Shown here one piece after another: positions 21,185 to 53,848 of a DNA stretch of 64,000 nucleotides (its first letter is position 1; every line of letters begins with the position of its first letter). The notes below the pieces were generated by a model that saw nothing but the letters and a program-made list of their open reading frames with translations, ran no database searches and was not told the DNA's origin. The position numbers and the translations under genes are program-made. Origin of the DNA: Alkalihalobacillus sp. AL-G (GTDB lineage: Bacteria; Bacillota; Bacilli; Bacillales; Fictibacillaceae); contig NZ_CP094656.1 of NCBI RefSeq assembly GCF_030643805.1, positions 496,001 to 560,000 of the forward strand, read 5' to 3'.

Positions 21185-21194
21185 TACAAAAAGG

Positions 21195-29156: not shown

Positions 29157-29199
29157 AGAGGTTGTTCGAGTGGCTGAAAAATTAAGGGGGAATTTGAAA

Positions 29200-29466
29200 A
29201 TGAAAAAAGTATTAGTCGTTTGTGGAAATGGTTTAGGAAGCAGCATGATCGTAGAAATGAATGTTAAGGCTGCCCTGAAGGAAATGGGTAAAGAGGCTGA
29301 CGTATCTCATACTGACCTTTCAACAGCTAAGACTGAACAAGCTGATTTATTTTTAGGGTCAGAGGACATTATTGAGAGTTTAGAAGATGGAAAGAAAAAT
29401 GTTGTCAAGCTTAAGAACCTGATGGATAAAAACGAGCTTCGTGCAGCACTAGAAAATAATTTGTAA
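29200..29466 (+). CDS. ulaB: PTS EIIB, ascorbate (SgaB/UlaB) type
   Basis: An 88-residue phosphocarrier with the phosphorylated Cys in VVCGNGLGSSMI near the N-terminus. It passes phosphate from EIIA to the incoming sugar. ATG 29200 is placed by AGGGGG; a GTG at 29170 in the same frame has no site. Between the regulator and the EIIC gene. Confidence 0.9.
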   Translation: MKKVLVVCGNGLGSSMIVEMNVKAALKEMGKEADVSHTDLSTAKTEQADLFLGSEDIIESLEDGKKNVVKLKNLMDKNELRAALENNL

Positions 29467-29496
29467 GTCAATTTTGAAACGAAAGGGGCGTTACAC

Positions 29497-30864
29497 ATGG
29501 TTGATTTAATCATGAAGGATATATTAGGAACACCTGCAATTCTTGTTGGTTTATTCGCATTGATCGGTCTTATTGTACAACGTAAAAATTCCGGAGAAGT
29601 CGTGTCAGGTACACTGAAAACGGTCATGGGCTTCGTCATCCTGGGTGCAGGAGCAAGTGTACTTGTCCAATCATTAGGACAGTTCAGTAGTATGTTCAAT
29701 AAAGCATTCGCCGTAGATGGGGTCATTCCGAATAATGAAGCAATTGTTGCTTTAGCTCAAAAAGGCTTTGGTACAGAAACGGCGATGATTATGTTGTTCG
29801 GTATGATTGCTAACATAATCTTTGCGCGTTTTACACCTTTTAAGTATATCTTTTTAACAGGGCATCATACGATGTTCATGGCCTGCTTGATCGGAGTCAT
29901 CTTGACTACTGGAGGATTCTCCGGAGCTTCTATGGTCATCCTTGGAGCAATTATTCTGGGAGCATTGATGGTGCTATCCCCGGCCATGTTACAGCCTTTC
30001 ACTCGTAAAGTAACAGGATCTGATGACTTTGCAATAGGGCACTTTGGGTCAATTGGTTATTACGTATCCGCTCTGGTCGGGAAAGCGGTAGGAAAAGGCT
30101 CTAGATCCACTGAAGAAATTAAAGTGCCTAAATCACTTGGGTTCCTGCGTGATACTTCCGTTTCAGTCTCCTTAACCATGGCAATTCTTTTCTTCGTCGT
30201 TGCAAGCTTTGCAGGACCTTCATTTGTTGAAGCAGAATTAAGTGGAGGGCAAAACTTCCTTGTCTTTGCCTTTATGCAAGGTCTTACTTTTGCAGCAGGA
30301 GTGTACATTATCCTTGCCGGAGTTAGAATGCTCCTAGGCGAGATTGTCCCAGCATTTAAAGGGATTGCTGATAAAATCGTACCGAATGCAAAACCAGCGC
30401 TTGATTGTCCAGCCATTTTCCCGTTTGCGAGTAATGCTGTCATCATCGGATTTTTCTTTAGCTTCATCGCTGGACTAGTAAGCATGTTATTCTTGCCATT
30501 ATTAGGTTTAAAAGTCATCGTTCCAGGGTTGGTACCACACTTTTTCACGGGAGCTGCTGCCGGAGTATTCGGAAATGCAACTGGCGGACGAAAAGGGGCG
30601 ATCTTCGGATCGATGGCCAACGGAGTAATGATCAGCTTTTTACCCGCGTTATTGCTTCCAGTACTTGGCTCCCTTGGATTTGAAGGGACGACATTTGGAG
30701 ATGCAGACTTTGGCGTAGTCGGTATTGTTCTTGGAAACCTTATCCGATTAATTGAGTCCAATATGATTGTCTTTATTGCAATTTTAGGATTGATAGGCCT
30801 CCTATTCTTACTAGGATGGAAAACTAAGGCCAACAAGAGTAAAAATAATACTGAAGCCGCTTAA
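29497..30864 (+). CDS. ulaA: PTS EIIC, ascorbate (SgaT/UlaA) type
   Basis: A 455-residue membrane permease of the ascorbate-galactitol PTS superfamily. Blocks shared with UlaA include KTVMGFVILGAGA, FLTGHHTMFMA, ALDCPAIFPFASNAVIIGF and a glycine-rich VFGNATGGRKGA. It should import and phosphorylate L-ascorbate or a close relative. The ascorbate-6-phosphate catabolic genes (ulaG, ulaD, ulaE, ulaF types) are not in this window, so the substrate remains a family-based guess. A strong terminator follows. Confidence 0.88.
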   Translation: MVDLIMKDILGTPAILVGLFALIGLIVQRKNSGEVVSGTLKTVMGFVILGAGASVLVQSLGQFSSMFNKAFAVDGVIPNNEAIVALAQKGFGTETAMIMLFGMIANIIFARFTPFKYIFLTGHHTMFMACLIGVILTTGGFSGASMVILGAIILGALMVLSPAMLQPFTRKVTGSDDFAIGHFGSIGYYVSALVGKAVGKGSRSTEEIKVPKSLGFLRDTSVSVSLTMAILFFVVASFAGPSFVEAELSGGQNFLVFAFMQGLTFAAGVYIILAGVRMLLGEIVPAFKGIADKIVPNAKPALDCPAIFPFASNAVIIGFFFSFIAGLVSMLFLPLLGLKVIVPGLVPHFFTGAAAGVFGNATGGRKGAIFGSMANGVMISFLPALLLPVLGSLGFEGTTFGDADFGVVGIVLGNLIRLIESNMIVFIAILGLIGLLFLLGWKTKANKSKNNTEAA

Positions 30865-39563: not shown

Positions 39564-39592
39564 TTGCAATTATAAAAATTATATATTATTAT
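39564..39592 (+). promoter_or_regulatory. Sigma-A promoter of the LacI/sugar locus
   Basis: TTGCAA (39564-39569), 17-base spacer, TATTAT (39587-39592). Transcription should start close to 39599, just before operator 1. Confidence 0.7.
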
Positions 39593-39604
39593 GTGGTCAA
39601 GCGT

Positions 39605-39624
39605 ATATGTAAACGTTTACATAT
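39605..39624 (+). promoter_or_regulatory. LacI-type operator 1
   Basis: Perfect 20-bp palindrome around TGTAAACGTTTACA, overlapping the expected transcription start. It also fits the cre consensus. Confidence 0.85.
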
Positions 39625-39660
39625 GAAAAATAAAAACCAGCGAACATTTTTTTACTCGAG

Positions 39661-39678
39661 TGTGTAAACGTTTACACA
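39661..39678 (+). promoter_or_regulatory. LacI-type operator 2
   Basis: Perfect 18-bp palindrome TGTGTAAACGTTTACACA; its centre is 55 bp from operator 1. Confidence 0.85.
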
Positions 39679-39705
39679 AAATGGCATTTAAATTTTTTTA
39701 TGATA

Positions 39706-39723
39706 TGTGTAAACGTTTACACA
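39706..39723 (+). promoter_or_regulatory. LacI-type operator 3
   Basis: The same 18-bp palindrome as operator 2, 45 bp on, ending only a few bases before the ribosome site of the lacI-family gene. Confidence 0.85.
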
Positions 39724-39739
39724 AGAAAGGAGACATAAA

Positions 39740-40756
39740 TTGGCGAGTATAACGATTAAAGATATTGCCAAAGAAACAGGCGTTTCAATAGCTACAGTAT
39801 CAAGAGTTTTAAACAATACAGGATATGCAAGTGAAGAAATTAGAGAAAAAGTGCTTTCGACTGCTATGAGGCTTAATTATTTACCAAATGCAGTCGCAAG
39901 AAGCTTGAAAAATGAGAAAACCAATACAATCGGTGTTGTCATTCCGGATATCACCAACTCGTATTTTATGCAAATTTCAAAAGGGATTGAAGATACGATT
40001 CATCAATATGGCTATAACCTAATCTTTGGAAGTGGAAATGAACATTCAAAAAAAGAAAGTGAAATGTTACAAGTTTTATTTGAAAAGAGAGTCGATGCAA
40101 TCGTTTTGGCAACCTCAGGTGGAAATGAAGAAATTATTGAAAAGATTAAAAAAAGCGGTATTCCGATCGTATTAATCGATAGAAAAATAAATGGGAAAGA
40201 ACATGATTTAGATCTAGTTATAGAAGACAATATCGAAGCCGCATATGAGTTGACAAAACATTTATTGGACTTAGGACATACTCGGATCGGAGTAGTTAAC
40301 GGATCCTTAACAGTCAGTACTGGTATTGAGCGTTATCGTGGATACCAAAAAGCGATTCAAGAAAAAGGGATCACAGAAGACCCTAAACTGATTTTTAACG
40401 GTGGATTTATCGAATCTGATGGTAAGGAAGCGGTGGATCGATTCTTACAACTGGCTTCTAAGCCAACTGCGATTCTTTCTTTTAATAACACGATGACTTT
40501 TGGAGTTCTTCTCCAATTGATTAGCAAAGGATACGAAATTCCTGAGGATATCGTTGTTGCTTCGTATGGTGAAGTGGAGGCAGCAAAATTACTAAAATCA
40601 CAAGGTATTACGTATACGAACCAAATACCGTATGAAATGGGTGTCCGGACAGGGGAAATACTGATTGATCGATTGATTAACTCTATTCAAGGACCGATCC
40701 ATGAAGTCTTCAAACCTACCATTAATTTTAACGAACAAACCAAATTCAGTAACTGA
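39740..40756 (+). CDS. LacI-family transcriptional regulator
   Basis: A 338-residue regulator with an N-terminal LacI HTH (TIKDIAKETGVSIATVSRVL) and hinge (ARSLKNEKTNTIGVV), followed by a periplasmic-binding-like sugar domain. TTG 39740 follows AAAGGAG by about eight bases. Three perfect operators sit upstream, so autoregulation plus control of the downstream sugar genes is expected. The effector is presumably the sugar handled by the isomerase, kinase and ABC transporter that follow. Confidence 0.92.
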   Translation: MASITIKDIAKETGVSIATVSRVLNNTGYASEEIREKVLSTAMRLNYLPNAVARSLKNEKTNTIGVVIPDITNSYFMQISKGIEDTIHQYGYNLIFGSGNEHSKKESEMLQVLFEKRVDAIVLATSGGNEEIIEKIKKSGIPIVLIDRKINGKEHDLDLVIEDNIEAAYELTKHLLDLGHTRIGVVNGSLTVSTGIERYRGYQKAIQEKGITEDPKLIFNGGFIESDGKEAVDRFLQLASKPTAILSFNNTMTFGVLLQLISKGYEIPEDIVVASYGEVEAAKLLKSQGITYTNQIPYEMGVRTGEILIDRLINSIQGPIHEVFKPTINFNEQTKFSN

Positions 40757-40771
40757 TAAAGGGAGGAAAAG

Positions 40772-41371
40772 ATGGATACTTTGCTGCATTTAAAGAGGGT
40801 CATTGAAGAGGAAGCATCGGCGATCCAAGCTCTATTAGGGCAAATTAATCAAAGTTATGAAGATGCTTTCAATCTGATTTCAACATGCCAGGGTAAAGTT
40901 GTAGTTTCAGGTGTAGGAAAATCAGGCCATGTAGGTAAGAAAATTGCAGCCTCTCTTGCAAGTACAGGTACTCCGGCGTTCTTTGTACACAGTACAGAAG
41001 GGGTTCATGGAGATTTGGGTATGATTACTAAATCAGATGTCGTCATTCTTATTTCAAATAGCGGAGAAACTAAGGAAGTACTTAATCTTATACCATCTCT
41101 CAACAAAATCGGCAGTAAATGTATTGCGATTACATCAAAACCCGATTCCACGCTCGCTCAAGCTTGTGATGTTGCTCTTACCTATCAATATGATCATGAG
41201 GCAGATCTTCTCGGGTTAGCACCTACAACTAGTTCCACTATTACTCTTGTTATTGGGGATGCTCTAGCAATTGCACTGTCTACTAGTAAGAATTTCAGTA
41301 AAGAAGATTTCCATTTATCGCACCCCGGTGGAAGTTTAGGTCAGCAATTATCAAAACCAAAAAAGTCTTAA
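40772..41371 (+). CDS. Arabinose-5-phosphate isomerase-like SIS protein without CBS domains
   Basis: A 199-residue sugar isomerase domain closely following the KdsD/KpsF/GutQ pattern: GKVVVSGVGKSGHVGKKIAA, TGTPAFFVHSTEGVHGDLGM, ISNSGETKEV, LGLAPTTSSTIT and the closing LSHPGGSLG. Typical enzymes have about 320 residues with two C-terminal CBS domains, which are absent here. They interconvert D-arabinose 5-phosphate and D-ribulose 5-phosphate, usually for Kdo synthesis in Gram-negatives. In a Bacillaceae sugar operon a catabolic role is likelier. It lies 15 bases after the regulator and 16 before the kinase. Confidence 0.85.
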   Translation: MDTLLHLKRVIEEEASAIQALLGQINQSYEDAFNLISTCQGKVVVSGVGKSGHVGKKIAASLASTGTPAFFVHSTEGVHGDLGMITKSDVVILISNSGETKEVLNLIPSLNKIGSKCIAITSKPDSTLAQACDVALTYQYDHEADLLGLAPTTSSTITLVIGDALAIALSTSKNFSKEDFHLSHPGGSLGQQLSKPKKS

Positions 41372-41387
41372 GAAGGATGTAGATCTT

Positions 41388-42323
41388 GTGAACATACTAG
41401 TTATTGGTAGTTTTATGATGGATTTGGTGGTAAGAACACCTCGTGCGCCTCAAAAAGGGGAAACAATTATCGGAACACACTTTTCAAGATATCCAGGTGG
41501 AAAAGGTGCTAACCAGGCTGTCTCAGCTGCTAGGCTTGGGGGCGACGTAACGATGGTTGGCATGCTGGGGAATGATAGTTTTGGTGATGATATTTTGGAA
41601 GAATTACAAATCAACCAAATCAATACAAAATTCATTTTACGAGATAATACTAGTTCCACTGGCATTGGCTTGGTCACCGTTGAGGAAGATGGTAACAACC
41701 GGATTGTGATTGTTCCGAGTGCAAATTTGAATTACCGACCGACTGATCTTGTGAATGTTGAGAGTCTTATTGAAAAAGCAGATATTTTATTGGTTCAACT
41801 TGAAATGGATATATCGGTAACAGAGGAAGCTATATCCTGTGCCAAGCAGTATGGAGTTCCAGTCATTCTTAATCCAGCACCTGGAAGAAAGTTAGAGGAT
41901 CATTTATTCGAAAAAGTCACTTACCTAACACCAAATGAAACCGAGGCAGAACTTCTTACTGGAATAAAAATTAATTCAATAGAAGATGTAAAAGAAGCAG
42001 GAAATGTTTTATTAAGTAAAGGTGTTGAAAACGTTGTAATCACAATGGCAGATAAGGGAGCGCTTATTGTCAATCAACTTGGATCCTATCACGTTCCTGG
42101 ATACCCTGTTGATATTAAAGATACGGTTGCAGCTGGAGATGCGTTCAATGGGGGACTAGCAATTGGAGTTGCAAGTGGTAAATCTTTAAAAGACGCGATC
42201 CATTTTGCGAATGCAGTTGGCGCGTTAACAGTCACAAAGGAAGGGGCGATACCATCCGTTCCTTATCTAAACGAAGTACAAGAGTTTATTAAAAAATTTG
42301 AAGCAAGTAATAAGGTTAATTAA
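41388..42323 (+). CDS. rbsK: Ribokinase-family sugar kinase
   Basis: A 311-residue PfkB-family kinase with the ribokinase signatures: GGKGANQAVSAARLGG, the ATP/substrate motif TVAAGDAFNGGLAIG with the catalytic Asp, and LNPAPGRKL. The overall pattern is that of RbsK. In place of ribose, the neighbouring isomerase suggests D-arabinose as substrate, giving D-arabinose 5-phosphate; ribokinases are known to be somewhat promiscuous. GTG 41388 is the start. Confidence 0.88.
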   Translation: MNILVIGSFMMDLVVRTPRAPQKGETIIGTHFSRYPGGKGANQAVSAARLGGDVTMVGMLGNDSFGDDILEELQINQINTKFILRDNTSSTGIGLVTVEEDGNNRIVIVPSANLNYRPTDLVNVESLIEKADILLVQLEMDISVTEEAISCAKQYGVPVILNPAPGRKLEDHLFEKVTYLTPNETEAELLTGIKINSIEDVKEAGNVLLSKGVENVVITMADKGALIVNQLGSYHVPGYPVDIKDTVAAGDAFNGGLAIGVASGKSLKDAIHFANAVGALTVTKEGAIPSVPYLNEVQEFIKKFEASNKVN

Positions 42324-42371
42324 TCAAAAAATAAGTTTATCAACCCTCGAAAATGACGGGGAGGAGTGTCC

Positions 42372-43259
42372 ATGAAGAAAAAGGGTTTTAAACAACGCAT
42401 GACAAGAGAATCGTTAACCGCATATGGGTTTTTACTTCCAAATTTAATTGGATTGACGGTCTTTATTTTTGTACCTATGGTTTACGCATTTTATGTCAGT
42501 CTTCATGATTGGAATGCGTTATCACCAAAAGTTTTTATAGGTTTTGATAACTATTTTAGACTTGCAGAAGATAAAGCCTGGTGGAAATCGGTTTATCGAA
42601 CATTCATTTTTACGATTATTTATGTTCCAGCATTATATGGTTTATCACTGTTTTTTGCAGTAGCGATTAGCTCTCTAAGAGGAAAAGTAGAAGGATTTGC
42701 CCGAACGATGTTCCTGTTGCCTTATGCGATCACTTCGGTTATATCCGCAGTAATCTGGATGTTCTTATATAACCCTCGAAATGGTGTGATCAATCAATTT
42801 TTGGAACTAGTCGGTCTTCCGGGACAAAAGTTTCTAGGGTCAACAGATGAAGCATTGATTTCGATTATTGTGGTTATCTTATGGATCAACTTAGGTTATA
42901 ACATGATGATTTTCCTCGCTGCAATTAAAGAAATACCAAATGACTATTACGAAGCGGCACGTATTGATGGGGCAAAAGGGTGGCAGTCATTCTTGCATAT
43001 TACCTTCCCATTGATTCGAGAAACGAGCATTTTTATTTTAATTGTTACAACAATCGGATCCTTTCAGGTTTTCGACCAGATAATGGTCATGACCAAGGGA
43101 GGCCCTGCTAATTCGACCGAAGTGAGTGTTTTGTATATTTACCAACAGGCATTTGAATTCCTTGATATGGGATATGCCTCTGCTTTAGCGGTTGTCTTGT
43201 TCTTAATTATTTTTTCTCTATCACTCGTTCAACTCAAGATTTATTCTAAACAGGATTAA
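42372..43259 (+). CDS. ABC sugar transporter permease (MalF/UgpA type)
   Basis: A 295-residue membrane protein with six helices and the cytoplasmic EAA loop YYEAARIDGAKGWQSFLHI in which the ATPase docks. ATG 42372 is preferred over GTG 42366, which lies in the GGGGAGGAG ribosome site. It forms the channel with the next gene. The ATPase is missing from the locus, so a shared MsmX-type ATPase is likely, as for many Bacillus sugar importers. Confidence 0.92.
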   Translation: MKKKGFKQRMTRESLTAYGFLLPNLIGLTVFIFVPMVYAFYVSLHDWNALSPKVFIGFDNYFRLAEDKAWWKSVYRTFIFTIIYVPALYGLSLFFAVAISSLRGKVEGFARTMFLLPYAITSVISAVIWMFLYNPRNGVINQFLELVGLPGQKFLGSTDEALISIIVVILWINLGYNMMIFLAAIKEIPNDYYEAARIDGAKGWQSFLHITFPLIRETSIFILIVTTIGSFQVFDQIMVMTKGGPANSTEVSVLYIYQQAFEFLDMGYASALAVVLFLIIFSLSLVQLKIYSKQD

Positions 43260-43271
43260 GGGGGGGAGAAA

Positions 43272-44078
43272 GTGAAAAAACCGAATCTCCTATTAGTTAC
43301 TATGATCTTTATTATTGGGATCTTGATGATTGCCCCAATTTATTTTCTCGTGATTAGTTCTTTTAAACAACCACAAGACGTTTTTAGTACAAGTGTAAAT
43401 CTATCAACTTTAACATTAGATAACTTTAAAGCAGTCTTTGAGACTAACATACTTCATGCCATATGGAATTCGTTCATTGTTTCAACGGTAGTGACAGTTG
43501 TTGCATTACTTTTTCATTCAATGTCAGGTTACGCGTTAGCTCGTCTCAATTTCCCGTGGAAAAAACAAATATTTGCTTGGATGATTAGTACGTTGATGAT
43601 CCCTTTTACAATCATCATGATCCCTCTTTATATGGTTACGAAAACGTTAGGAATGAGTAACTCTTATGCTGGATTGATCATCCCGATGATTTTTAACGCA
43701 TATGGTATCTTTCTTTTCCGGCAATTTTACCGTGAGTTTCCGAAAGAACTTGAAGAAGCAGCTTATATGGAAGGGTTATCGATCGCTGGGACTTTCTTTC
43801 GCCTCGTACTGCCTTTATCTAAATCGATTATCGTTCCGTTGACCATTGGTTTCTTTACGTTTAACTGGAATAACTACTTATGGCCTTTAATCATTACTCA
43901 AGATGAAGATTTAATGGTCGTACAAGTCGCTTTAGCAAACATTGTAGGTGGAGGATATGAAACGCCGTGGAGTATCGTCCTGGCAGCTGCTTTACTTGGA
44001 GCGATTCCAACGTTCTTACTGTTCTTCTTTATGCAAAAGCATCTTGTCGAAGGTATCAAAATGACTGGAATCAAGTAG
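43272..44078 (+). CDS. ABC sugar transporter permease (MalG/UgpE type)
   Basis: A 268-residue membrane protein with six helices and an EAA loop ELEEAAYMEGLSIAGTFFRL. It is 12 bases after the first permease; the GTG start at 43272 follows GGGGGGGAG. It completes the channel of the carbohydrate uptake-1 family transporter whose binding protein is encoded at 45348. Confidence 0.92.
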   Translation: MKKPNLLLVTMIFIIGILMIAPIYFLVISSFKQPQDVFSTSVNLSTLTLDNFKAVFETNILHAIWNSFIVSTVVTVVALLFHSMSGYALARLNFPWKKQIFAWMISTLMIPFTIIMIPLYMVTKTLGMSNSYAGLIIPMIFNAYGIFLFRQFYREFPKELEEAAYMEGLSIAGTFFRLVLPLSKSIIVPLTIGFFTFNWNNYLWPLIITQDEDLMVVQVALANIVGGGYETPWSIVLAAALLGAIPTFLLFFFMQKHLVEGIKMTGIK

Positions 44079-44189
44079 ACGAATCTACCTTTGCGCAGTC
44101 GGTGAACAAATGCATGCTCAGCGGGCACAATTGTACGTTCGGCGTCACCATTAGATCAAATTGACTTAAATTTGAAGGGAGAAAGCTTC

Positions 44190-45287
44190 ATGACTTTTTT
44201 AGGAACTTCGCTTAGAGACTTATACAGAGAAAGAGACAGTAAGAGAAAAAGAGATTCAAGCTATGATAAAACTGGTGGAAATAAGGACTATTTTGTCTTC
44301 AAGCCTGGCGAAAAACAAACGATCTCTAATATCTCGGGGTCTGGGTGTATTACTCATATTTGGATGACGATGGCCCCTCTGACCGATAATTCAGAAGAAT
44401 ATCTTCATAGAAAAGTTGTAATAAGAATGTATTGGGATGATGAAGAAAATCCAAGCGTACAAGCACCAATTGGGGATTTCTTTGGAATGGGTCACGGCAT
44501 AACAAAAAATTACTCATCTGCCCCCTTAGCAATGAGTCCAGAAGATGGTCGGGCATTAAATTGCTATTTTCCAATGCCGTTTTCAAATAACGCTCGTATA
44601 GAAATTGAGAGTGAAGCTGATGAGCCTATCAAATTTTATTTCTATATCGATTATGAACTTTACGATCAACCAATTGATAGCTCTTTACGATTCCATGCTT
44701 TTTGGAAGAGGGAGGTGACGAAAGGAATTGAGGATAATATTTCAAACACACTCTTTTCATTTGATGGAAAAAATACTTCTGGAGAAGAAAACTACACCAT
44801 TTTAGAAACGAATGGAAAGGGTCATTATGTTGGTTGCAACCTGAATATTCACAATCTTAGATTCACACAAGAGTGGAATTGGTACGGGGAAGGCGACGAT
44901 ATGATTTTCATTGATGGAGAGAAATGGCCGCCGACCTTGCATGGGACAGGAATGGAAGATTACTTTAATACAGCTTGGTGTCCGCAACAGGAAGTTTCTA
45001 CTCCTTATCATGGAATTATTTTAGGGGGAGGACCGAACTGGTCAGGTAAGATTTCTGCTTACAGATATCATATTCAAGATCCAATTACATTTGATAAATC
45101 AATAAAAGTGACTATTGAACATGGTCACAATAATCACCGAAGTGATGATTATTCAAGTACTGCATACTGGTACCAAACAGAACCACATACTGCTCAGCCG
45201 GACATTTTACCTGTAAGGGATCGTCTGCCTTTACCAGACGTTTTACCTTTTAATGAGGAAGATAAGAAGAAGTGCTTCGATTATTAG
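44190..45287 (+). CDS. GH172 (DUF2961) glycoside hydrolase
   Basis: A 365-residue cytosolic protein (no signal peptide) of the DUF2961 family, now GH172. Recognisable are the N-terminal Arg/Ser-rich start, SGSGCITHIWMTM, APIGDFFGMGHG and the strongly conserved HGTGMEDYFNTAW. Characterised GH172 enzymes act on alpha-D-arabinofuranosides (D-arabinan) or alpha-D-fructofuranosides (difructose anhydrides). ATG 44190 has AAGGGAG upstream; a TTG at 44172 in frame has none. Being intracellular, it would split short imported oligosaccharides. The arabinose-5-phosphate isomerase neighbour favours D-arabinose over fructose. Confidence 0.87.
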   Translation: MTFLGTSLRDLYRERDSKRKRDSSYDKTGGNKDYFVFKPGEKQTISNISGSGCITHIWMTMAPLTDNSEEYLHRKVVIRMYWDDEENPSVQAPIGDFFGMGHGITKNYSSAPLAMSPEDGRALNCYFPMPFSNNARIEIESEADEPIKFYFYIDYELYDQPIDSSLRFHAFWKREVTKGIEDNISNTLFSFDGKNTSGEENYTILETNGKGHYVGCNLNIHNLRFTQEWNWYGEGDDMIFIDGEKWPPTLHGTGMEDYFNTAWCPQQEVSTPYHGIILGGGPNWSGKISAYRYHIQDPITFDKSIKVTIEHGHNNHRSDDYSSTAYWYQTEPHTAQPDILPVRDRLPLPDVLPFNEEDKKKCFDY

Positions 45288-45347
45288 GGGATGTTCAACA
45301 AGCATGGTTACTTGTAATTTAAAAAACTATTAGTAGGGGGAAGTCTA

Positions 45348-46607
45348 ATGAAACGTTGGAAAGTATTCTTTGCGTGTAGTTTGGCATTAATCATGATTTT
45401 CCAGGCAGGTTGCAGTAGTAGTAAAACAAGTTCAGAGGATGTAGTTACACTTAGTTTTTGGGATTTCCATTCCGAATCACAAAAAGATTTCTTTGCAGAT
45501 CTAGTAAAAGAATATAACGCCTCACAAGATAATGTGAAAATCGAATTCAAATCGTTCAACCAAAGTGATTATGGTACAACAAAGTTACCGGTTGCTTTTG
45601 CCAATGGGGAGGGACCAGACATCTTTATGGTCAATCCAGGGGACTTTTTGAAATTTGCAGATGCTGGGATCCTGGCAGACCTTAACCCTTATTTTCCGGA
45701 AGGTGTGAAAGAAGATTTTCTTCCCGCCTCAATAGAAGCTGTTACTTATGAAGATAAAGTGTTAGCGCTCCCGTATGAACTAGAATTACTCGCACTTTTC
45801 TATAACAAAGATATGCTGGCTGATGCCGGTGTCGAGGTACCGAAAACGTGGGATGAGCTTTCATCTGCCGCGGAAAAATTAACAACGGATGAAGTTGCTG
45901 GGTTGATTTTACCGACTGATAAAGCGACTTACTTGAATTTCATATGGTATCCGTTCTTATGGCAACAGGGAGGCAGTGTGCTAACTGAAGATAAAACGGC
46001 CTCTAACTTTGATTCACCAGAAGTTGTAAAAGCATTGGATTATTGGGGGAGCTTCTTCCAAGAAGGTTCATCACCTGCAAAATTACAGCGAGGTCCTTGG
46101 GAGATAGGACATGTTGGTGAAGAAACAGCTGCAATGCAAATTGTAGGTACATGGGATGTTCCCGCATTAGAAAGAGAATTCCCGGATGTTAATGTAGGAG
46201 TAGCACCGATTCCAATTCCGGAGGGTGGAAAACAAGCAACAGCAGCAGGTGGTTATAAGTTTGCAGTCAATTCAAAAAGTGAGCATGTAGAGGAAGCGGC
46301 AAAATTCGTTATGTGGGCTTTTGGTGATGAAGATACATCACACGCTCTAGAATGGTGTACGGATGTTAAATTTGCATATTCACCTAGAAAATCAGTAATT
46401 GAAGCAGGGCAAGAAACATATAATAGCGGCCTTCAAAAGGTATTTACAGATGAGATTTACGAGACAGCTATTCCTGAACCGAGTTTTAATGCCAAAACAG
46501 TTGACATTATCGGAACTGCACTGCAAGAGGTCATGTTTGGAGATGTGAGCGGTGAAGATGCTGCCAAAAAAGCACATGAAAAAATAAATGAATCTCTAGG
46601 AAATTAG
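45348..46607 (+). CDS. ABC sugar-binding lipoprotein
   Basis: A 419-residue extracellular solute-binding protein of family 1 (MalE/UgpB type). The signal ends in the lipobox FQAGC. The fold starts VTLSFWDFHSESQKDFF and has ALPYELELLALFYNKDML, typical of oligosaccharide binders. Unusually it is the last gene of the transporter operon, after the glycosidase. Its pocket should define the imported oligosaccharide. A hairpin element follows the stop codon. Confidence 0.92.
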   Translation: MKRWKVFFACSLALIMIFQAGCSSSKTSSEDVVTLSFWDFHSESQKDFFADLVKEYNASQDNVKIEFKSFNQSDYGTTKLPVAFANGEGPDIFMVNPGDFLKFADAGILADLNPYFPEGVKEDFLPASIEAVTYEDKVLALPYELELLALFYNKDMLADAGVEVPKTWDELSSAAEKLTTDEVAGLILPTDKATYLNFIWYPFLWQQGGSVLTEDKTASNFDSPEVVKALDYWGSFFQEGSSPAKLQRGPWEIGHVGEETAAMQIVGTWDVPALEREFPDVNVGVAPIPIPEGGKQATAAGGYKFAVNSKSEHVEEAAKFVMWAFGDEDTSHALEWCTDVKFAYSPRKSVIEAGQETYNSGLQKVFTDEIYETAIPEPSFNAKTVDIIGTALQEVMFGDVSGEDAAKKAHEKINESLGN

Positions 46608-46640
46608 CAAAGTTAATTTAATTCCTAGTTATAACACTGA

Positions 46641-46715
46641 GAGGCTGACTCATAAGTGTCTGGCTACCTCCATAACTGGGGTGCCTGACACTTTGCTTTT
46701 GAGTCAACCTCTTTT
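46641..46715 (+). repeat. Element C: 75-bp inverted repeat acting as terminator
   Basis: GAGGCTGACTCA and AGTGTC on the left pair with GACACT and TTTTGAGTCAACCTC on the right; TTTTC follows. The ends resemble those of the MITE-like elements A and B. It separates the ABC operon from the pentonate operon. Confidence 0.75.
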
Positions 46716-46803
46716 CAAAAGGTGCCTGTCACTCCCCGATATTTGTCGGAATATGGAAGGCGCACATGGTTAAGTTAAATTGGTCATAGAGAGGGGAGTT
46801 TTA

Positions 46804-47712
46804 ATGAGAATCATTAGATATTTAAATTCATCGGAAAAAAAAGTTCTCGCGGCTATTACTGTTGAAAACCGTGTATATGACTTACCGTACCATGACTTTT
46901 TGGAACTAGTTCGAGCTGCAGAAGAAAAGAAGGTTCAGCCTGTTACATTAGTTGAACAAGTTATAGAACAATCATTGCCTCTTTCTGATTCTCCTGAAAA
47001 GCTGAAGGTGCTTGTTCCGGTTGAAGCTCCAGAAGTATGGGCTTCAGGAGTCACATACGAAAAAAGCAAGGAAGCTAGAAACTATGAATCTACTAATGGA
47101 GAGGATGATGCTAAAAGCTTCTATGACAAAGTTTATACAGCTGATCGCCCTGAGCTCTTTTTTAAGTCCACAGCTGATCGGACGATTGGACCCGGTGATC
47201 CAGTCTATTTGCGAAGTGATTCCGAGTGGCAGATTCCTGAACCTGAATTGGGGTTGGTTTTGGACTCGGAAGGCAATATTCTAGGGTTTACCGCTGGGAA
47301 TGATATGAGCTGCCGCGATATTGAAGGAGAGAATCCTCTTTATCTCCCGCAGGCAAAAATATGGAGGCACTCTTGTGTAATCGGTCCAGCCATTCGTTTG
47401 GTGGAAACGGTAAAAGATCCTTACGACTTCCAGATCACTTGCCGTATTTTTAGAAATGAACAAAACGTTTTTGAAGGTTCCGCGAGTGTCGGTCAGTTGA
47501 AAAGAAGGCTGGAGGAGTTAACCTCGTATCTCGTAAAAGAGAATGTTGTGTTTCCTGGCACCATTTTGTTGACTGGAACGTGCATCGTCCCTCCAAATGA
47601 TTTTACACTCCTGGAGGGGGATTATATTGAAATTGAAATACCAGGAATCGGTGTATTGAGTAATCCAGTCTTGAGTCAGGTTACACAGAGTATTGGATCG
47701 CAACGTGTTTAA
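46804..47712 (+). CDS. FAH-family 2-keto-3-deoxy-pentonate dehydratase (XylX/KdaD-like)
   Basis: A 302-residue fumarylacetoacetate hydrolase-superfamily protein. The metal ligands are visible in IPEPELGLVLDSEG and NDMSCRDIEGENP. The order VWASGVTYEKSKEARN and YLPQAKIWRHSCVIGP fits the subgroup (XylX, KdaD, AraD1) that dehydrates 2-keto-3-deoxy-D-arabinonate/xylonate to 2-oxoglutarate semialdehyde. ATG 46804 follows GAGGGGAG; an ATG at 46780 lacks a site. The next genes supply the step before and the step after, which supports this assignment. Confidence 0.8.
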   Translation: MRIIRYLNSSEKKVLAAITVENRVYDLPYHDFLELVRAAEEKKVQPVTLVEQVIEQSLPLSDSPEKLKVLVPVEAPEVWASGVTYEKSKEARNYESTNGEDDAKSFYDKVYTADRPELFFKSTADRTIGPGDPVYLRSDSEWQIPEPELGLVLDSEGNILGFTAGNDMSCRDIEGENPLYLPQAKIWRHSCVIGPAIRLVETVKDPYDFQITCRIFRNEQNVFEGSASVGQLKRRLEELTSYLVKENVVFPGTILLTGTCIVPPNDFTLLEGDYIEIEIPGIGVLSNPVLSQVTQSIGSQRV

Positions 47713-47736
47713 AATCAACGAGAGGAGGCGCCGGAT

Positions 47737-48060
47737 TTGGCAAAACGACAAACCTTAATGATGAAGCCAATTGATAACGTAGCGGTTGCTTTAACTCCAA
47801 TTAAAAAAGATACCGTTCTACAGGTAACCTGTCAGGACAAAACGTTTTCGGTGGTATTACAAGACGATATTGATTTTGGGCATAAGTTTGCAGTGGTAAC
47901 GATCCAAAAAGAACAAGATGTCAGGAAGTATGGAGAAGTGATCGGGGTAGCATCTTCTGAAATTCAGGCAGGCGAACACGTTCATATTCATAACGTAGAA
48001 GGAAAAAGAGGACGGGGGGATAAAGTTGGAAGAGAACACAATGCAACTCATGGGATATAG
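47737..48060 (+). CDS. Sugar-acid dehydratase, small SAF subunit (UxaA N-terminal type)
   Basis: A 107-residue SAF-domain protein equal to the N-terminal domain of altronate/galactarate dehydratases (DNVAVALTPIKKDTVL ... EVIGVASSEIQAGEHVHIHNVEG in parts). TTG 47737 follows GAGGAGG. It overlaps the large subunit by 35 bases, so the two are coupled. Splitting of UxaA into two chains is known in this superfamily. Confidence 0.83.
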   Translation: MAKRQTLMMKPIDNVAVALTPIKKDTVLQVTCQDKTFSVVLQDDIDFGHKFAVVTIQKEQDVRKYGEVIGVASSEIQAGEHVHIHNVEGKRGRGDKVGREHNATHGI

Positions 48061-49198
48061 ACGTCCGGATGGAAAAATCGGCATTCGTAATCATGTGCTC
48101 ATATTACCGACTATCACTTGTGCGACACAGGCAGCGCAACGTATTACAGAGTTAGTTGATGGAGTGGTTACATTTATTCACCAACATGGTTGTGCGCAAG
48201 TAGGGGTCGATTATGAACAAACCTTTCGTACATATGCCGGTATGGGTAAAAATCCAAACGTATATGGGGTTGTTGTATTAGGTCTCGGATGCGAAACTCA
48301 TCAAGCAAGAAGTGTGGCAGATGATATACGGGAGTGCGGAAAACCGGTTGAAGTCGTTTCAATCCAGGATCATGGCGGAACATTAACCGCCATTGCGGAA
48401 GGTGCAAAAGTGGCCGCTAAAATGGTGCAGGATGCTTCCATGCAAATGAAAGTCCCATTTGAATTTAATGAACTAATCGTCGGAACGGAATGTGGTGGGT
48501 CAGATGCATGCTCAGGATTATCGGCTAATCCAGCTGTTGGTGCAGTGAGCGATATGATTGTCGATCGTGGAGGTACTGCGGTATTGGCCGAGACTACTGA
48601 ATTGATCGGCGCGGAGCATTTACTTGCCGAACGAGCGGTGGATGACCAGGTATCCAAGAGAGTTTATGAAGTTATCAATGCGATGGAAAACCGAGCAATT
48701 CAAATGGGAGTAGATATTCGAACAGGAAACCCCAGTCCTGGGAATGTGAAAGGTGGACTCACAACATTAGAAGAAAAGTCACTTGGCGCTGCAACAAAAG
48801 CGGGAAGCCGCCCTCTTCAGGAATTGGTGAATTACGCAGAAGTTCCAAACAAAAAGGGGCTAGTTTGGATGGATACCCCGGGTCATGATATTGAACAATT
48901 AACCGGGATGGTAGCCGGAGGGGCTCAAGTTGTGTTGTTTACGAGTGGCCGTGGTACTCCAACCGGTTCTCCTATTGCGCCAGTATTGAAGATTTCAACG
49001 AATACAACGTTGTTTGAACGGATGTCAGAAAATATTGATTTAAATGCCGGTTCTATCGTGGAAGGAACAGAAACCGTCAACGAGGTAGGGCAACGGATAT
49101 TAAATGAGATCAAGTTAACATGCTTAGGAAAAAAGACAAAATCTGAAATTTTAAAGCAACACGACTTTGGAATTTGGCGAATTGGACCGACGTTTTAA
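48026..49198 (+). CDS. Sugar-acid dehydratase, large subunit (UxaA C-terminal type)
   Basis: A 390-residue protein of the galactarate/altronate dehydratase C-terminal family. Conserved Cys/His motifs are present: MGYRRPDGKIGIRNHVLI, FIHQHGCAQVG, GLGCETHQ, VGTECGGSDACSGLSANP and TPGHDIEQLTG. The family removes water from aldonates or aldarates to give 2-keto-3-deoxy acids. With the XylX/KdaD-like enzyme and a semialdehyde dehydrogenase, a pentonate (D-arabinonate) is the natural substrate. TTG 48026 follows GGGGGGA by five bases; ATG 48041 is the alternative. Confidence 0.83.
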   Translation: MEENTMQLMGYRRPDGKIGIRNHVLILPTITCATQAAQRITELVDGVVTFIHQHGCAQVGVDYEQTFRTYAGMGKNPNVYGVVVLGLGCETHQARSVADDIRECGKPVEVVSIQDHGGTLTAIAEGAKVAAKMVQDASMQMKVPFEFNELIVGTECGGSDACSGLSANPAVGAVSDMIVDRGGTAVLAETTELIGAEHLLAERAVDDQVSKRVYEVINAMENRAIQMGVDIRTGNPSPGNVKGGLTTLEEKSLGAATKAGSRPLQELVNYAEVPNKKGLVWMDTPGHDIEQLTGMVAGGAQVVLFTSGRGTPTGSPIAPVLKISTNTTLFERMSENIDLNAGSIVEGTETVNEVGQRILNEIKLTCLGKKTKSEILKQHDFGIWRIGPTF

Positions 49199-49244
49199 AG
49201 GACTTTTTATATAAATTTTCGCCAAAAGAAAGGACTGAGTGTAA

Positions 49245-50705
49245 ATGACTGTCGAGACAACTGTAAAGACGTACGACAATTATATAAATGGCACATGGAC
49301 CAGTGGTGAAACCAACCAAGTAGAAAATAGTTATAATCCGGCTAATCCAAGTGAAGGGATTGGAGCCTATCACTTATCATCCGAACAAGATGTGAATAGT
49401 GCGGTGGAAGCTGCGAAGGCCGCCAGCAAAGCTTGGAGAAAATTAGCAGGGGCACAACGTGGTGATTACTTATATCAAGTGGCGAATGCCATTGAAAAGA
49501 ATTTAGATGATATTGCTGAAACGATGACAAGAGAAATGGGGAAGACACTACCAGAATCAAAGGGAGAAACCGCTAGAGGAGTAGCAATCCTTCGTTATTT
49601 TGCTGGAGAAGGGATGCGTAGTGTTGGCGATGTCATTCCATCGACAGATCAGGAAGCACTTATGTATACGACCCGCGTTCCGTTAGGAGTAGTCGGTGTC
49701 ATTACCCCGTGGAACTTCCCGGTGGCTATTCCAATTTGGAAAATGGCTCCTGCCCTCATTTATGGGAATACGGTTGTCATTAAGCCAGCACAAGAAACAG
49801 CTGTGACAACGACAAAAATTATTGAGTGTTTTAATGAGGCCGGTTTGCCTAACGGTGTCGTGAACTTGGTAAATGGAAAAGGATCAGTAGTTGGGCAACG
49901 TCTCATTGATCACCCAGATGTAAAAGGATTGACTTTTACCGGTTCGAATAATACTGGCCAAAGGGTAGCAGAAGGAGCATTGGCGAGGGGGGCCAAATAC
50001 CAGCTTGAAATGGGTGGGAAAAACCCTGTTATCGTTGCGGATGATGCGAATTTAGATCTCGCGGTAGAAGGAACAATCAGTGGAGGATTACGTTCAACTG
50101 GACAAAAATGCACTGCAACAAGTCGCGTTATCGTTCTTGCAGAAGTATACGAACAATTTAAAGAAAAACTTATAAATGAAATAGAAAAGTTATCTGTTGG
50201 AGATGGATTAACCGAAGGAACATGGATGGGGCCATGTGTCAGTGAGTCCCAATTAAAAACGGTGCTTTCCTATATTGAAAAGGGAAAAGAAGAAGGTGCA
50301 ACGCTTTTATATGGTGGAAAAAGACCCGAAGGCCTAGGGAATGGTTATTTTGTAGAGCCGACTGTTTTTGAAAAAGTCGATTCAAAAATGGCCATCGGTC
50401 AGGAAGAAATTTTCGGGCCAGTATTAGCGCTCATTAAGGCTGAGACATTAGAAGAAGCTTTTGAACTTGCTAATGATGTGAAATTTGGTTTAAGTGCATC
50501 GATATATACTACAAACATTGGAAATATGATGGATTTCATTGAGGAGATCGATGCAGGGCTGGTACGGGTAAATGCAGAAACAGCTGGGGTTGAGCTTCAA
50601 GCTCCATTTGGTGGTATGAAGGCATCTAGTTCTCATTCCAGAGAACAAGGACAAGCCGCTAAAGAGTTTTTCACAACACTAAAGACAGTTTTTGTAAAAT
50701 CATAA
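49245..50705 (+). CDS. 2-Oxoglutarate semialdehyde dehydrogenase-type ALDH
   Basis: A 486-residue aldehyde dehydrogenase. The catalytic Cys is in [12 protein letters not shown], Glu in [12 protein letters not shown], and the cofactor site is [14 protein letters not shown]. These resemble the B. subtilis YcbD-type enzymes that oxidise 2,5-dioxopentanoate (2-oxoglutarate semialdehyde) to 2-oxoglutarate. It completes the chain pentonate to 2-keto-3-deoxy-pentonate to semialdehyde to TCA cycle. It lies 46 bases after the dehydratase, in the same operon. Confidence 0.88.
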
Positions 50706-50720
50706 TTAAAAGGACTATTC

Positions 50721-50750
50721 TTGACACCTCAGATCTACATTCAAATTTTA
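50721..50750 (+). promoter_or_regulatory. Possible promoter of the DUF4185 gene
   Basis: TTGACA at 50721-50726 with an AT-rich but poor -10 (ATTTTA) 18 bases downstream. Confidence 0.35.
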
Positions 50751-50788
50751 TTCAATTATTGGATTCCAATATAAAAGGAGAGGTTTGA

Positions 50789-52783
50789 ATGTCAATAATT
50801 AGTTTTAAGAAATTGATTCCCGTCGGACTTTCCGTGATTCTCGTATTAGCTATGTGTGCAAGTCTTAATCCCTCTACGAATCTAGTAAAAGCTGAGACAC
50901 CTGAAAAAAGCACGTTTTTTTCAACAGCCTATATTGAAGAAGCAGATTCCTATAATACCGCTAGTGATGGTGATTTATGGGCATCCTGCTGGGCCGGTGA
51001 CGGTAATCTGTATGCAGCAAATGGGGACGGAAGGGGTTTTAGTTTAGACGGACCATTCGCTGATATCGCGGTAAACGAAATCAGCGGAACTCCGCCAAAT
51101 CTCACAGGAACTACAATCGCCCATAGTGATGAAGTGGGTCAAATTTGGAGCGATCCACAGCATTATAATCGAAAGCCAACGGGAATGGTATGTGTCGATG
51201 GTCATTTGTATTTAGCTGTCCAAGACTTGAACAAAGATTTCAACGATGTTCCGTCAGCAACGATTCTAAAATCAACCGATAAGGGTAAAACGTGGACGTG
51301 GGATAAAAGTAAACCGATGTTCGATGATTATACGTTTACGACAATCATGTTCCTGGACTATGGAAAGAACAATGAAAATGCAACAGATGACTATGTATAT
51401 GCCTATGGATTGGATAATAATTGGAGAGACTCGTTTAACGATCGCGTCCAAGACCCGACGAAACTTTATCTAGCGAGGGTACATAAATCAAGTATCCAGG
51501 ATCGATCGAAATGGGAATTTTTTACGGGCAAAGATGCTGACGCCACCCCTCAATGGTCAAGTAATATTGAAGACCGGCAGCCCGTTCTACAAGATGACCG
51601 AAGAGTCTACCAAGACACCTTTTTCACTAATGACCCCAAAAACATGACGGTCTTGTCCCAAGGAAGTATCGTGTACAATGAACCTTTGGATCGGTATATT
51701 TATACATCATGGACCGAATATACATTTGAATTTTACGAGGCACCTACACCATGGGGTCCATGGAAGCTCTTCTTGTCAAAAGATTATGGGGGATATCCTT
51801 GGACAGATACGAAAAATGGCGGATATGCTACGACAATTCCTTCTAAGTTCATCAGCTCGGATGGTAAAACGATGTTCGTTCAGTCGAACACATTCATGGG
51901 AGGCATAACCAACTATAACTTCTCATTAAGAAAGCTCGTAGTTGAACCAAAAGTTCCTTCGACACCAACCAACACAAAAGATAATTATTCCAATCTAGCC
52001 ATAACTGGAGAAGGGACTACACCCATCAATAAAGTTGCCCACTACGGAAATATCGATTACTTCAATAATGGAATAAGGCTTGAATCCGAAGACAGCTGGA
52101 ATAATGAAAGGAAGACGAAGGATTGGTGGGGCTATACTTGGAAAAAGAAGTACAACATGAATAAAGTCAATTATACAACTGGCAAGATGTTTCCAGATGG
52201 AGGCTGGTTTAGTGAAGGGCTGAAGGTCCAGGTTCGACAAAACCATAATTGGATCGATGTTACGAATCTATCGGTAACGCCTGAGTATCCTTATAACAAT
52301 ACAGCAGGCCCGAATAAAACGTATACATTCACGTTCGATGATAATTGGGGAGATGGAGTGCGTATTATCGGAGCACCAGGAGGAGCTGTAACGTTTACTT
52401 CGATTGGAGAATTATCGGTATATTATGCTGATGATAAAGAGTCTCCAAATACCAGGCCTTTTACAATCGGAAATGCAGAATTCTCTAAGTCAGAAGGGAT
52501 TCTTGTCAACGCAACCGTTGGACGTACGCTGGATACCAGAGACCATGAGGGGAAAGAAACCGTTATTTTTCAATTGTGGAAAAATGATAAGGCGATCGAT
52601 TTCGTTGCTTTAACAAAGGACATCCAGGATTCAGAAGATATGACCGCCTATTTTAATTTAGAGGATGACTTGAAAAAGTATGAAATTAAAGTATTCGCTG
52701 TAAATTCACTTAAAGAATTTCTCGCAAATGAAGATGCCATTGAGGTTCTATCGAACGAGTTGACTGTATCAGATACAGAATAA
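50789..52783 (+). CDS. Secreted DUF4185 protein, probable D-arabinan-degrading glycosidase (GH183-like)
   Basis: A 664-residue exported protein. The signal peptide covers about residues 1-35 (cut near VKA-ETP). Residues about 50-400 match DUF4185: DGDLWASCWAGDGNLYAANGDG, ISGTPPNLTGTT, NRKPTGMVCVDGHLYLAVQDLN, DKGKTWTWD, LARVHKSSIQDRSKWEFFTG and an APTPWGPWKLF block, each given only in part. Asp-rich DGD motifs may form the active site of this beta-propeller-like fold. Residues about 430-664 look like beta-rich carbohydrate-binding or accessory domains. DUF4185 members were assigned to GH183, endo-D-arabinanases. It would cut the polymer outside the cell for the ABC importer. Confidence 0.75.
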   Translation: MSIISFKKLIPVGLSVILVLAMCASLNPSTNLVKAETPEKSTFFSTAYIEEADSYNTASDGDLWASCWAGDGNLYAANGDGRGFSLDGPFADIAVNEISGTPPNLTGTTIAHSDEVGQIWSDPQHYNRKPTGMVCVDGHLYLAVQDLNKDFNDVPSATILKSTDKGKTWTWDKSKPMFDDYTFTTIMFLDYGKNNENATDDYVYAYGLDNNWRDSFNDRVQDPTKLYLARVHKSSIQDRSKWEFFTGKDADATPQWSSNIEDRQPVLQDDRRVYQDTFFTNDPKNMTVLSQGSIVYNEPLDRYIYTSWTEYTFEFYEAPTPWGPWKLFLSKDYGGYPWTDTKNGGYATTIPSKFISSDGKTMFVQSNTFMGGITNYNFSLRKLVVEPKVPSTPTNTKDNYSNLAITGEGTTPINKVAHYGNIDYFNNGIRLESEDSWNNERKTKDWWGYTWKKKYNMNKVNYTTGKMFPDGGWFSEGLKVQVRQNHNWIDVTNLSVTPEYPYNNTAGPNKTYTFTFDDNWGDGVRIIGAPGGAVTFTSIGELSVYYADDKESPNTRPFTIGNAEFSKSEGILVNATVGRTLDTRDHEGKETVIFQLWKNDKAIDFVALTKDIQDSEDMTAYFNLEDDLKKYEIKVFAVNSLKEFLANEDAIEVLSNELTVSDTE

Positions 52784-52833: not shown

Positions 52834-53188
52834 ATCTTAATGCAAGTTTGAGTTCGTCGAAAAATGAAAGCGGACTATAGTCATCCTCACACCGACTTTT
52901 GTCATATACGTGATGTGAAATCCTAAACATTTTTGTCTAGCAAAAAGGGATGGGGCAGAATGATGTCTGTGAAATGCAGAAAGAGCGATGCAAGCAGGCG
53001 ATGCTCTTATTGTACGAACCAAATTTTATTCTTGTTCCTATTGCGGGCTTTTTCATCAACTTTTCCTTTTTAAAAATAATTCCATACTTGTCCACCTTAA
53101 AAGCCTATTAATCTAGTATATATGCCGTTGCTAAAAGAGTTTTTATCAATATACTAATAGTACTCCGATATAAAGGAGGTGTTAGTAG
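52834..53188. other. Intergenic region with repeat copy 7
   Basis: About 350 bases with no gene. It holds palindromic repeat copy 7, an AGAGC...GCTCT type hairpin near 52980-53010 and the AGGAGGTG of the following gene. Nothing else is recognisable. Confidence 0.5.
52855..52905 (+). repeat. Intergenic palindromic repeat, copy 7
   Basis: CGTCGAAAAATGAAAGCGG, palindrome at 52873-52882, closing ACCGACTTTTGTC; here the outer GTCG/CGAC ends also pair. Confidence 0.85.
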
Positions 53189-53644
53189 ATGGGAAATAGA
53201 CAACGGGTAGCAGGGGAAACAACCGTATCAATCAGAAATGGAAATTCAGCTGCAGCGGCAGCGGCGGCAGCCGGGGATTCAGCAGCTGCGGCGGCAGCGG
53301 CAGCATCAGGTGATGGTTCAGCGGCAGCAGCGGCGGCGGCAGCGGGGGATGGGTCAGCAGCAGCGGCAGCGGCGGCGGCATCAGGAGATTCAGCATCAGC
53401 GGCGGCAGCGGCAGCATCAGGAGATTCAGCAGCTACAGCGGCAGCAGCAGCATCCAGAAATGAATCCAATGATAACGGGGATGTCGGCGGTGTAGACACT
53501 AACGGAAGCAATGGAAGCTCAGCAGCTGCAGCAGCAGCGGCAAGTTCCAGAAATAGAAATAATTCAATTCGTAGCCCATCGGTATTTGCGAATGATGAAG
53601 GACCTTTAGCCATTAGAAGACTTACTCCACCACCACCATTGTAA
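53189..53644 (+). CDS. Poly-alanine, silk-like low-complexity protein
   Basis: A 151-residue protein made of about seven blocks of six to eight alanines separated by short GDS, SGDGS or GDGS spacers (residues 19-88), an Asn/Gly/Ser-rich linker, one more alanine block (about 111-117) and a tail ending in LTPPPPL. Head: MGNRQRVAGETTVS. Ribosome site AAAGGAGGTG is excellent. No signal peptide. The DNA is GCA/GCG-rich, unlike its neighbours, and stays open in other frames. The alternation of poly-Ala and Gly/Ser spacers resembles spidroins. It could be a spore-surface or structural protein; that is inference. Confidence 0.75.
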   Translation: MGNRQRVAGETTVSIRNGNSAAAAAAAAGDSAAAAAAAASGDGSAAAAAAAAGDGSAAAAAAAASGDSASAAAAAASGDSAATAAAAASRNESNDNGDVGGVDTNGSNGSSAAAAAAASSRNRNNSIRSPSVFANDEGPLAIRRLTPPPPL

Positions 53645-53848
53645 AAGAATAGGTAGTGCATTTTAGATCCCTATTTTATGACGGTGTTTGTGTGTATGTA
53701 CAAGCTGAATTTAGGACAGTGTTTATTCCATCTAAATCTCCTTTCATAAAGTCTCATCATGACAAACCCCTAAGCCTGATATCAATATAGTTGTACAAGC
53801 AAAGTGGTAAAAAAAGAGTTTTTTAACTTAGTGAAGGAGGTGGATATT

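Follow-up and report, generated by a model that had tools for sequence, protein, structure and literature searches.

A predicted D-arabinofuranoside utilisation operon of Alkalihalobacillus sp. AL-G with a putative kinase and arabinose-5-phosphate isomerase route

Introduction

Loci for the utilisation of D-arabinan are known from Actinobacteria and Bacteroidota, and the operon considered here, located at positions 39564-52783 of a 64,000-nucleotide stretch of Alkalihalobacillus sp. AL-G (contig NZ_CP094656.1, positions 496,001 to 560,000; the whole stretch is hereafter called the window), is a variant of these. The locus of Microbacterium arabinogalactanolyticum (PMC10509167) shares with it a secreted enzyme of glycoside hydrolase family 183 (GH183), an ATP-binding cassette (ABC) importer, an intracellular GH172 enzyme and a 'putative isomerase and kinase', and its stated end product, D-ribulose-5-phosphate, is the same as that proposed below. 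It differs in belonging to Actinobacteria and in having four GH183 genes plus GH116, and the accessible text does not mention an oxidative cassette. The intermediate of its route is not named in that text, and Fig. 9b of the article may already show arabinose 5-phosphate (A5P). Dysgonomonas gadei PUL42 (PMC10115798) likewise encodes DUF4185 and DUF2961 enzymes, which in D. gadei were shown to be active on D-arabinan; it differs in being a Bacteroidota polysaccharide locus, and a predicted fucose isomerase is the most abundant carbohydrate-active enzyme during growth on D-arabinan.

Two further groups of enzymes are relevant to the fate of the sugar. Route II, the non-phosphorylative D-arabinose pathway (PMC6336799), and the Sulfolobus 2-keto-3-deoxy-D-arabinonate dehydratase KdaD (PDB 2q18) share with the window locus UxaA-type and FAH-family dehydratases and 2-oxoglutarate as the end point, and both UxaA-type D-arabinonate dehydratase and FAH-type dehydratases have been published for bacteria. 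In contrast to Route II, as far as the source describes it, the window cassette has no aldose dehydrogenase, its UxaA protein is split into two subunits and it is situated inside a glycan operon. The A5P isomerases KdsD, KpsF and GutQ have the SIS isomerase domain in common with the window protein, which consists of the SIS domain only and whose gene lies in one run with those of a kinase and a glycosidase. According to PMC11301363, such isomerases supply the 3-deoxy-D-manno-octulosonate (KDO) part of lipopolysaccharide. Our literature search, with subscription papers mostly outside its coverage, found no kinase plus A5P isomerase pathway for D-arabinose catabolism.

Results

All genes of the locus form a single run on the plus strand in the list of open reading frames, and every gene named in a preliminary description of this DNA was recovered with Pfam and NCBIfam. 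The Pfam families represented were LacI, SIS, PfkB, BPD_transp_1 (twice), DUF2961, SBP_bac_1, FAA_hydrolase, SAF and GD_AH. A GH183 gene, a GH172 gene, an importer and a D-arabinose route, by which we define a D-arabinan utilisation locus, are thus found in one run. Profiles, neighbourhoods and modelled fold make it likely that this operon serves the utilisation of D-arabinofuranosides (probably D-arabinan) through a kinase plus A5P isomerase route, to which an oxidative cassette was added.

The gene at 40772-41371 (+) encodes a single-SIS-domain arabinose-5-phosphate isomerase-like protein (API), assigned with Pfam, NCBIfam and PDB comparison. It scored 222.7 bits against the KpsF/GutQ family of NCBIfam (cut-off 203.7), remained below the cut-off of the KdsD equivalog (231.8 of 505) and has Lys50, His73, Glu99, Glu143 and His184, which we take to be the active-site list of A5P isomerases; the family score and these residues together mark it as a putative A5P isomerase. 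The nearest PDB entries were 5uqi (phosphosugar isomerase) and 2xhz (arabinose 5-phosphate isomerase). Relatives of API were collected from 397 genomes of the order (E up to 1e-40) and fell into two size classes, the short one with 8 members (open frames of 196-224 aa), the long one with 27 (327-369 aa). Within the stretches examined, a kinase gene was located near seven of the eight short APIs, the exception being that of genome G113, and near none of the seven long ones that were examined. One long relative, the only one with neighbours scanned against Pfam, lies by genes for capsule synthesis and a HAD phosphatase, as would suit a role in KDO synthesis. In three cases the stretch around a short API had no GH172 gene: L225 has GH116- and DUF4185-like genes together with LacI, L226 ABC transporter genes and L227 a major facilitator superfamily transporter.

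The ribokinase-family kinase at 41388-42323 (+), identified by NCBIfam and alignment, scored 347 bits with the ribokinase model TIGR02152 (cut-off 299.65) and was under the cut-off of the second ribokinase model, NF008353 (306.5 bits vs 341). These models do not fix the sugar accepted, and the protein is predicted to be a D-arabinose 5-kinase. Its Gly94 corresponds to Ala98 of E. coli RbsK. D-arabinose is a very poor substrate for wild-type E. coli ribokinase, and with the A98G variant kcat is 15-fold higher (PMC9604405); human ribokinase has been used for A5P production from D-arabinose (PMC11591822). Each of the 24 API-linked kinases that could be read at this position had glycine there; one more (L079) ends before position 98 and is uncounted. 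Twelve control ribokinase-like proteins, hand-picked rather than random from 60 among 292 plasmid records (with stretches L250 and L251 lacking annotation or incompletely annotated), had Ala in ten cases, Phe in one and Gly in one; the last adjoins a SIS-domain gene, the product of which is 21% identical over 93 residues to that of the window. In view of the GH172 neighbourhoods and the GH172 tree (both below), the glycine in API-linked kinases and the effect of A98G in E. coli ribokinase, the kinase and A5P isomerase are probably the core route, from D-arabinose via A5P to ribulose-5-phosphate.

Neighbourhoods of GH172 genes were compared across the best 80 of 544 relatives, obtained in one scan of named genomes with flanks up to 10 kb. 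In tblastn searches, API was present in 23 of the 80 loci and the kinase in 19, all of them among the API-bearing ones. DUF4185-type genes were found in 34/80 loci (the representative of the largest cluster, the one scanned against Pfam, gave 349 bits). The preliminary description knew of no system of this composition in Firmicutes, which holds in detail only, since the Microbacterium locus has been published (PMC10509167) and 19 of the 23 API-bearing loci come from Bacillota records.

The two genes of the L-fucose route were distributed in a complementary manner. L-fucose isomerase (FucI) was found in 10/80 and FGGY kinase in 14/80 loci; the 15 loci with either of them had no API (Fisher p 0.0033, uncorrected for kinship). 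Weak matches to FucI (22-26%; L124, L126, L130-L132) and FGGY (24-26%; L124, L133, L138) were uncounted, and three representatives of each were named L-fucose isomerase and ribulokinase, respectively, by NCBIfam above cut-off. At least four changes between the two routes were read from the GH172 tree, and the host genome has no match to L-fucose isomerase. From the enzyme specificities, D-arabinose is, we assume, the one sugar that fits both the kinase/API and the FucI/ribulokinase routes. The L-fucose pathway also carries D-arabinose in E. coli mutants (PMC6336799), and the predicted fucose isomerase of D. gadei is abundant when D-arabinan is the growth substrate (PMC10115798).

Two other proteins were repeatedly encountered in these neighbourhoods. 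One, with a length of about 744 aa, accompanies GH172 in 19/80 loci (L061, 4605-6833, and 18 others); its representative matches DUF6259 and is a candidate for a further D-arabinan enzyme. Another, of about 650-670 aa, adjoins GH172 in 6/80 loci (L062, 10475-12427, and five others), its representative having no Pfam match.

The GH172 gene (44190-45287, +), identified by Pfam and alignment, encodes a protein whose start, read by eye, has no signal-like stretch. Profile search yielded DUF2961 (PF11175) at 291.9 bits (cut-off 27), as the preliminary description anticipated, and this is the sole PF11175 match in the 4.16-Mb genome. Its Glu234, Glu256 and Asp257 aligned to catalytic positions in PDB 8ah3, an enzyme from D. 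gadei for which Glu233/Glu254 (and Asp255) are published (PMC10115798); from structure name and residue numbers we infer that 8ah3 is DgGH172c. Sequence does not separate arabinofuranoside from fructofuranoside specificity within GH172, and the protein is predicted to be an alpha-D-arabinofuranosidase. A scan of viral contigs with this single protein detected no relative.

The DUF4185 protein (50789-52783, +; assigned by Pfam, AlphaFold model and Foldseek) has a signal-like N-terminal stretch, by eye, and a beta-rich C-terminal part. The family match claimed earlier was borne out for residues 101-400, which scored 54.9 bits against PF13810 (cut-off 39.5) with no other Pfam family over cut-off, and missed by the scan of the full-length protein; a six-frame search of the genome gave this protein as the sole PF13810 match (53.7 bits). 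Phmmer against the PDB returned no match, and a profile of 17 homologues reached EndoMA1, an endo-D-arabinanase, with 140 bits. The AlphaFold model (mean pLDDT 78.4) had as top Foldseek matches 8ic1 and 8hhv, both EndoMA1 (E 1.8e-18 and 3.8e-18, TMt 0.49), and at rank 11 another GH183 enzyme, M. tuberculosis AraH2 (8an0, TMt 0.65). Asp80 aligned with Asp51 of EndoMA1, which is the position mutated in 8ic1; the second catalytic aspartate is considered in the Discussion. On profile and fold, the secreted protein is a predicted divergent GH183. It should be added that the corresponding gene of a congener (L004/L010, G005:C10 ~82821-84787) has an apparent frameshift near the 3' end, with the C-terminal part in another frame.

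The importer is represented by permeases A (42366-43259, +) and B (43272-44078, +) and by a solute-binding lipoprotein (SBP; 45348-46607, +), all assigned with Pfam, the SBP starting with a lipobox read by eye; no ABC ATPase gene is present in the gene run 39564-52783.

A LacI-family regulator (39740-40756, +; Pfam) is preceded by a promoter-like site, TTGCAA-17-TATTAT (39564-39592, +), which matches the consensus at 9 of 12 positions; such sites are not in excess in the region (32 found, 38.1 expected, by consensus scan only), and a congener has a similar stretch, by eye. Between this site and LacI, motif search located three palindromic operators without strand assignment, TATGTAAACGTTTACATA at 39606-39623 and TGTGTAAACGTTTACACA at 39661-39678 and again at 39706-39723, and the congener likewise has three. 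Within two mismatches, the 18-base operator has three sites in the genome, all before LacI, and two more with three mismatches. A looser motif, TGTAAnCGnTTACA, was present in 10/23 isomerase-bearing loci vs 3/57 others. Within 320 bases of a start it precedes LacI in L060, L061, L065, L067 and L069, the isomerase in L064, L066 and L068, SBP in L061, L064 and L065, GH172 in L061, L065 and L098, and the DUF4185-type gene in L061 and L065; elsewhere it stands before a permease gene (L079) or before unassigned frames, and in L072 it has no gene start within that distance. This motif presumably fits the CcpA site consensus, and carbon catabolite control may therefore share the operator sites.

Four sugar-acid genes, all with intact frames, are placed between SBP and the DUF4185 gene, after a strong hairpin (46608-46779, z -5.17), beyond which perhaps only part of the transcript continues. 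The FAH-family protein (46780-47712, +) has KdaD (2q18) as its nearest PDB entry with 231.6 bits, the next best having 78; the source of 2q18 we take to be an organism of S. solfataricus type. It is followed by the small (SAF) subunit (47737-48060, +; Pfam, NCBIfam) and large subunit (48026-49198, +; Pfam) of a UxaA/GarD-type sugar-acid dehydratase, the latter being a GarD relative by PDB comparison, and by alpha-ketoglutaric semialdehyde dehydrogenase (KGSADH; 49245-50705, +), with 868.6 bits against NCBIfam NF042993 (cut-off 770). No aldose dehydrogenase or lactonase, and so no D-arabinose 1-dehydrogenase of Route II, was found in the locus by Pfam or NCBIfam. An FAH-linked aldo/keto reductase of another genome had a best match of 33%, with internal stops, in the host genome, other dehydrogenase families not being searched genome-wide; two partial matches to it (38% and 32%) occur in the window at ~2012-2452 and 9228-9653.

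The FAH gene was detected in 55/397 genomes of the order (E up to 1e-30), and in 9 of 20 stretches, taken from 20 of these 55 genomes, the UxaA large subunit (at least 76% identity) was alongside. In L170 the FAH neighbours include DctP, LarA-like, dihydroxy-acid dehydratase-like, 2-hydroxyacid dehydrogenase and IclR genes, a set that recurs in the congener. There, the DUF4185 gene directly follows SBP with no cassette between; a sugar-acid operon with a tripartite ATP-independent periplasmic (TRAP) transporter and IclR begins ~6 kb past DUF4185 in the same orientation, and the four cassette genes lie ~17 kb past it. At the locus considered here, only these four genes of that operon remain. 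The window UxaA and dehydrogenase are sisters to the same-genus copies in the tree, and the branch of FAH is long (62-69% to the 21 proteins in the comparison). For the dihydroxy-acid dehydratase-like protein of the same-genus genome G006, the host genome has one partial match only. UxaA and semialdehyde dehydrogenase genes were found by tblastn in 0/80 GH172 loci within the flanks; weak FAH matches (24%) were seen in L090 and L133. Because the congener keeps the cassette in a separate downstream operon, it is, on comparative grounds, not part of the core and appears as a genus-local addition to the D-arabinose operon.

Several features around the locus were also recorded. About 14 kb upstream, at 20057-26084, TRAP transporter genes (DctP, DctM) accompany short-chain dehydrogenase/reductase, ketopantoate reductase-like and FMN-dependent dehydrogenase genes, and 27045-30864 holds a PRD/EIIA regulator and a GAT-type phosphotransferase system permease gene. 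Just 3' of the locus, at 53182-53661, an imperfect 36-bp tandem repeat (53247-53454) is overlain by low-complexity alanine-rich frames in both directions; the plus-strand frame has no Pfam match.

Discussion

Use of D-arabinofuranosides by the locus, already proposed in the preliminary description, may be regarded as highly probable, because neighbourhoods, regulator-site signature, fold and residues agree, each of them by inference. D-arabinofuranose glycans other than mycobacterial D-arabinan exist, for instance pilin oligosaccharides (PMC10115798). In the mechanism we propose, the secreted GH183 protein would cut D-arabinan outside the cell, SBP and the two permeases would import oligomers with the help of an ATPase encoded elsewhere, and intracellular GH172 would free D-arabinose. 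The ribokinase-like kinase would then phosphorylate D-arabinose at C5, and the SIS isomerase would convert D-arabinose-5-phosphate to D-ribulose-5-phosphate for the pentose phosphate pathway. LacI, bound at the three operators, would keep the promoter repressed and would be released by the sugar or by a product. The four sugar-acid genes inside the operon would perhaps send D-arabinonate to 2-oxoglutarate as well, the D-arabinonate-making enzyme not being in the locus.

A number of observations weigh against this interpretation. Four of the 23 API-bearing loci show no kinase, and 42/80 loci have neither route within the flanks, some stretches being short or limited by contig ends. Across five PDB alignments RbsK position 98 was Ala in four and Gly in 8cqx, which may be an engineered form since it is otherwise like 6znx in the alignment; moreover, API-linked kinases may share a single origin, with which the kinase tree is compatible, so that the glycine is maybe a lineage mark as well as functional. 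The PF13810 match is weak and partial, spanning only profile positions 77-265 of 309; sialidases occupy Foldseek ranks 3-9 (TMt 0.23-0.26), and the profile alignment puts Asp62 one column away from the other EndoMA1 catalytic aspartate. The host genome has no match to GH116 (PF04685), and no operator precedes the FAH or DUF4185 gene in the window. Finally, among PDB entries the GH172 protein scored 293.8 bits with the fructofuranosidase 7v1v (alphaFFase1), 277.4 with 8ah3 and only 121.2 with ExoMA1 (8ic8). This slightly greater closeness to alphaFFase1, to which DgGH172c is reported to be highly similar (PMC10509167), would suit a system for fructofuranosides of the difructose anhydride type, in which fructose released by GH172 would be the substrate of the kinase; we judge this very unlikely, as it leaves the A5P isomerase, the exchange with FucI/ribulokinase and the GH183 gene unexplained.

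The preliminary description allowed for two D-arabinose routes, of which the kinase/A5P isomerase pair proved conserved, and the dehydratase/dehydrogenase set genus-local and without its first dehydrogenase. A reading in which D-arabinose is used mainly through the oxidative cassette, with kinase and isomerase serving A5P synthesis, ribose or another purpose, would accord with the presence of the set from D-arabinonate to 2-oxoglutarate save the dehydrogenase step, and with the Haloprofundus plasmid (L243, NZ_CP083667.1), where a GH183-like gene (50% to that of the window), GH172 (41%) and an ABC importer lie together within ~25 kb of Gfo6 dehydrogenase, MR/MLE dehydratase, KdaD-like FAH and aldehyde dehydrogenase genes. 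The haloarchaeal set, which has two Gfo6 genes and an annotated XacR as neighbours, may, however, be the organism's general pentose pathway, and the window locus has no dehydrogenase or lactonase for an oxidative main route. This candidate was set back because the congener operon lacks the cassette and none of the 80 GH172 loci shows its UxaA and dehydrogenase, even if cassettes could lie beyond the 10-kb flanks, as that of the congener does; we therefore hold it to be unlikely. A quite plausible alternative, although not the one we would choose, accepts the core route and takes the four oxidative genes for passengers, or for genes of an unrelated sugar acid, left by rearrangement. It is in line with their position in the TRAP/IclR operon of the congener, with the sister relationship of UxaA and dehydrogenase to the congeners' copies beside a long-branched FAH, and with the large hairpin before FAH; it is countered by the four intact frames and by their retention while the dihydroxy-acid dehydratase-like gene is gone. 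That D-arabinonate is the cassette substrate in this organism falls just short of an even chance.

Returning to the kinase plus A5P isomerase route, we consider, with fair confidence, that C5 phosphorylation followed by A5P isomerase action toward ribulose-5-phosphate may be an overlooked bacterial pathway, exchangeable with FucI/ribulokinase, in which the kinase would naturally have the Ala-to-Gly change that was engineered in E. coli ribokinase. If true, it would be an extra D-arabinose pathway, testable with two enzymes, and a catabolic group of APIs would explain single-domain APIs in Gram-positive bacteria. Bacillota would then also count among the degraders of D-arabinan, from which tools for work on the mycobacterial cell wall are drawn.

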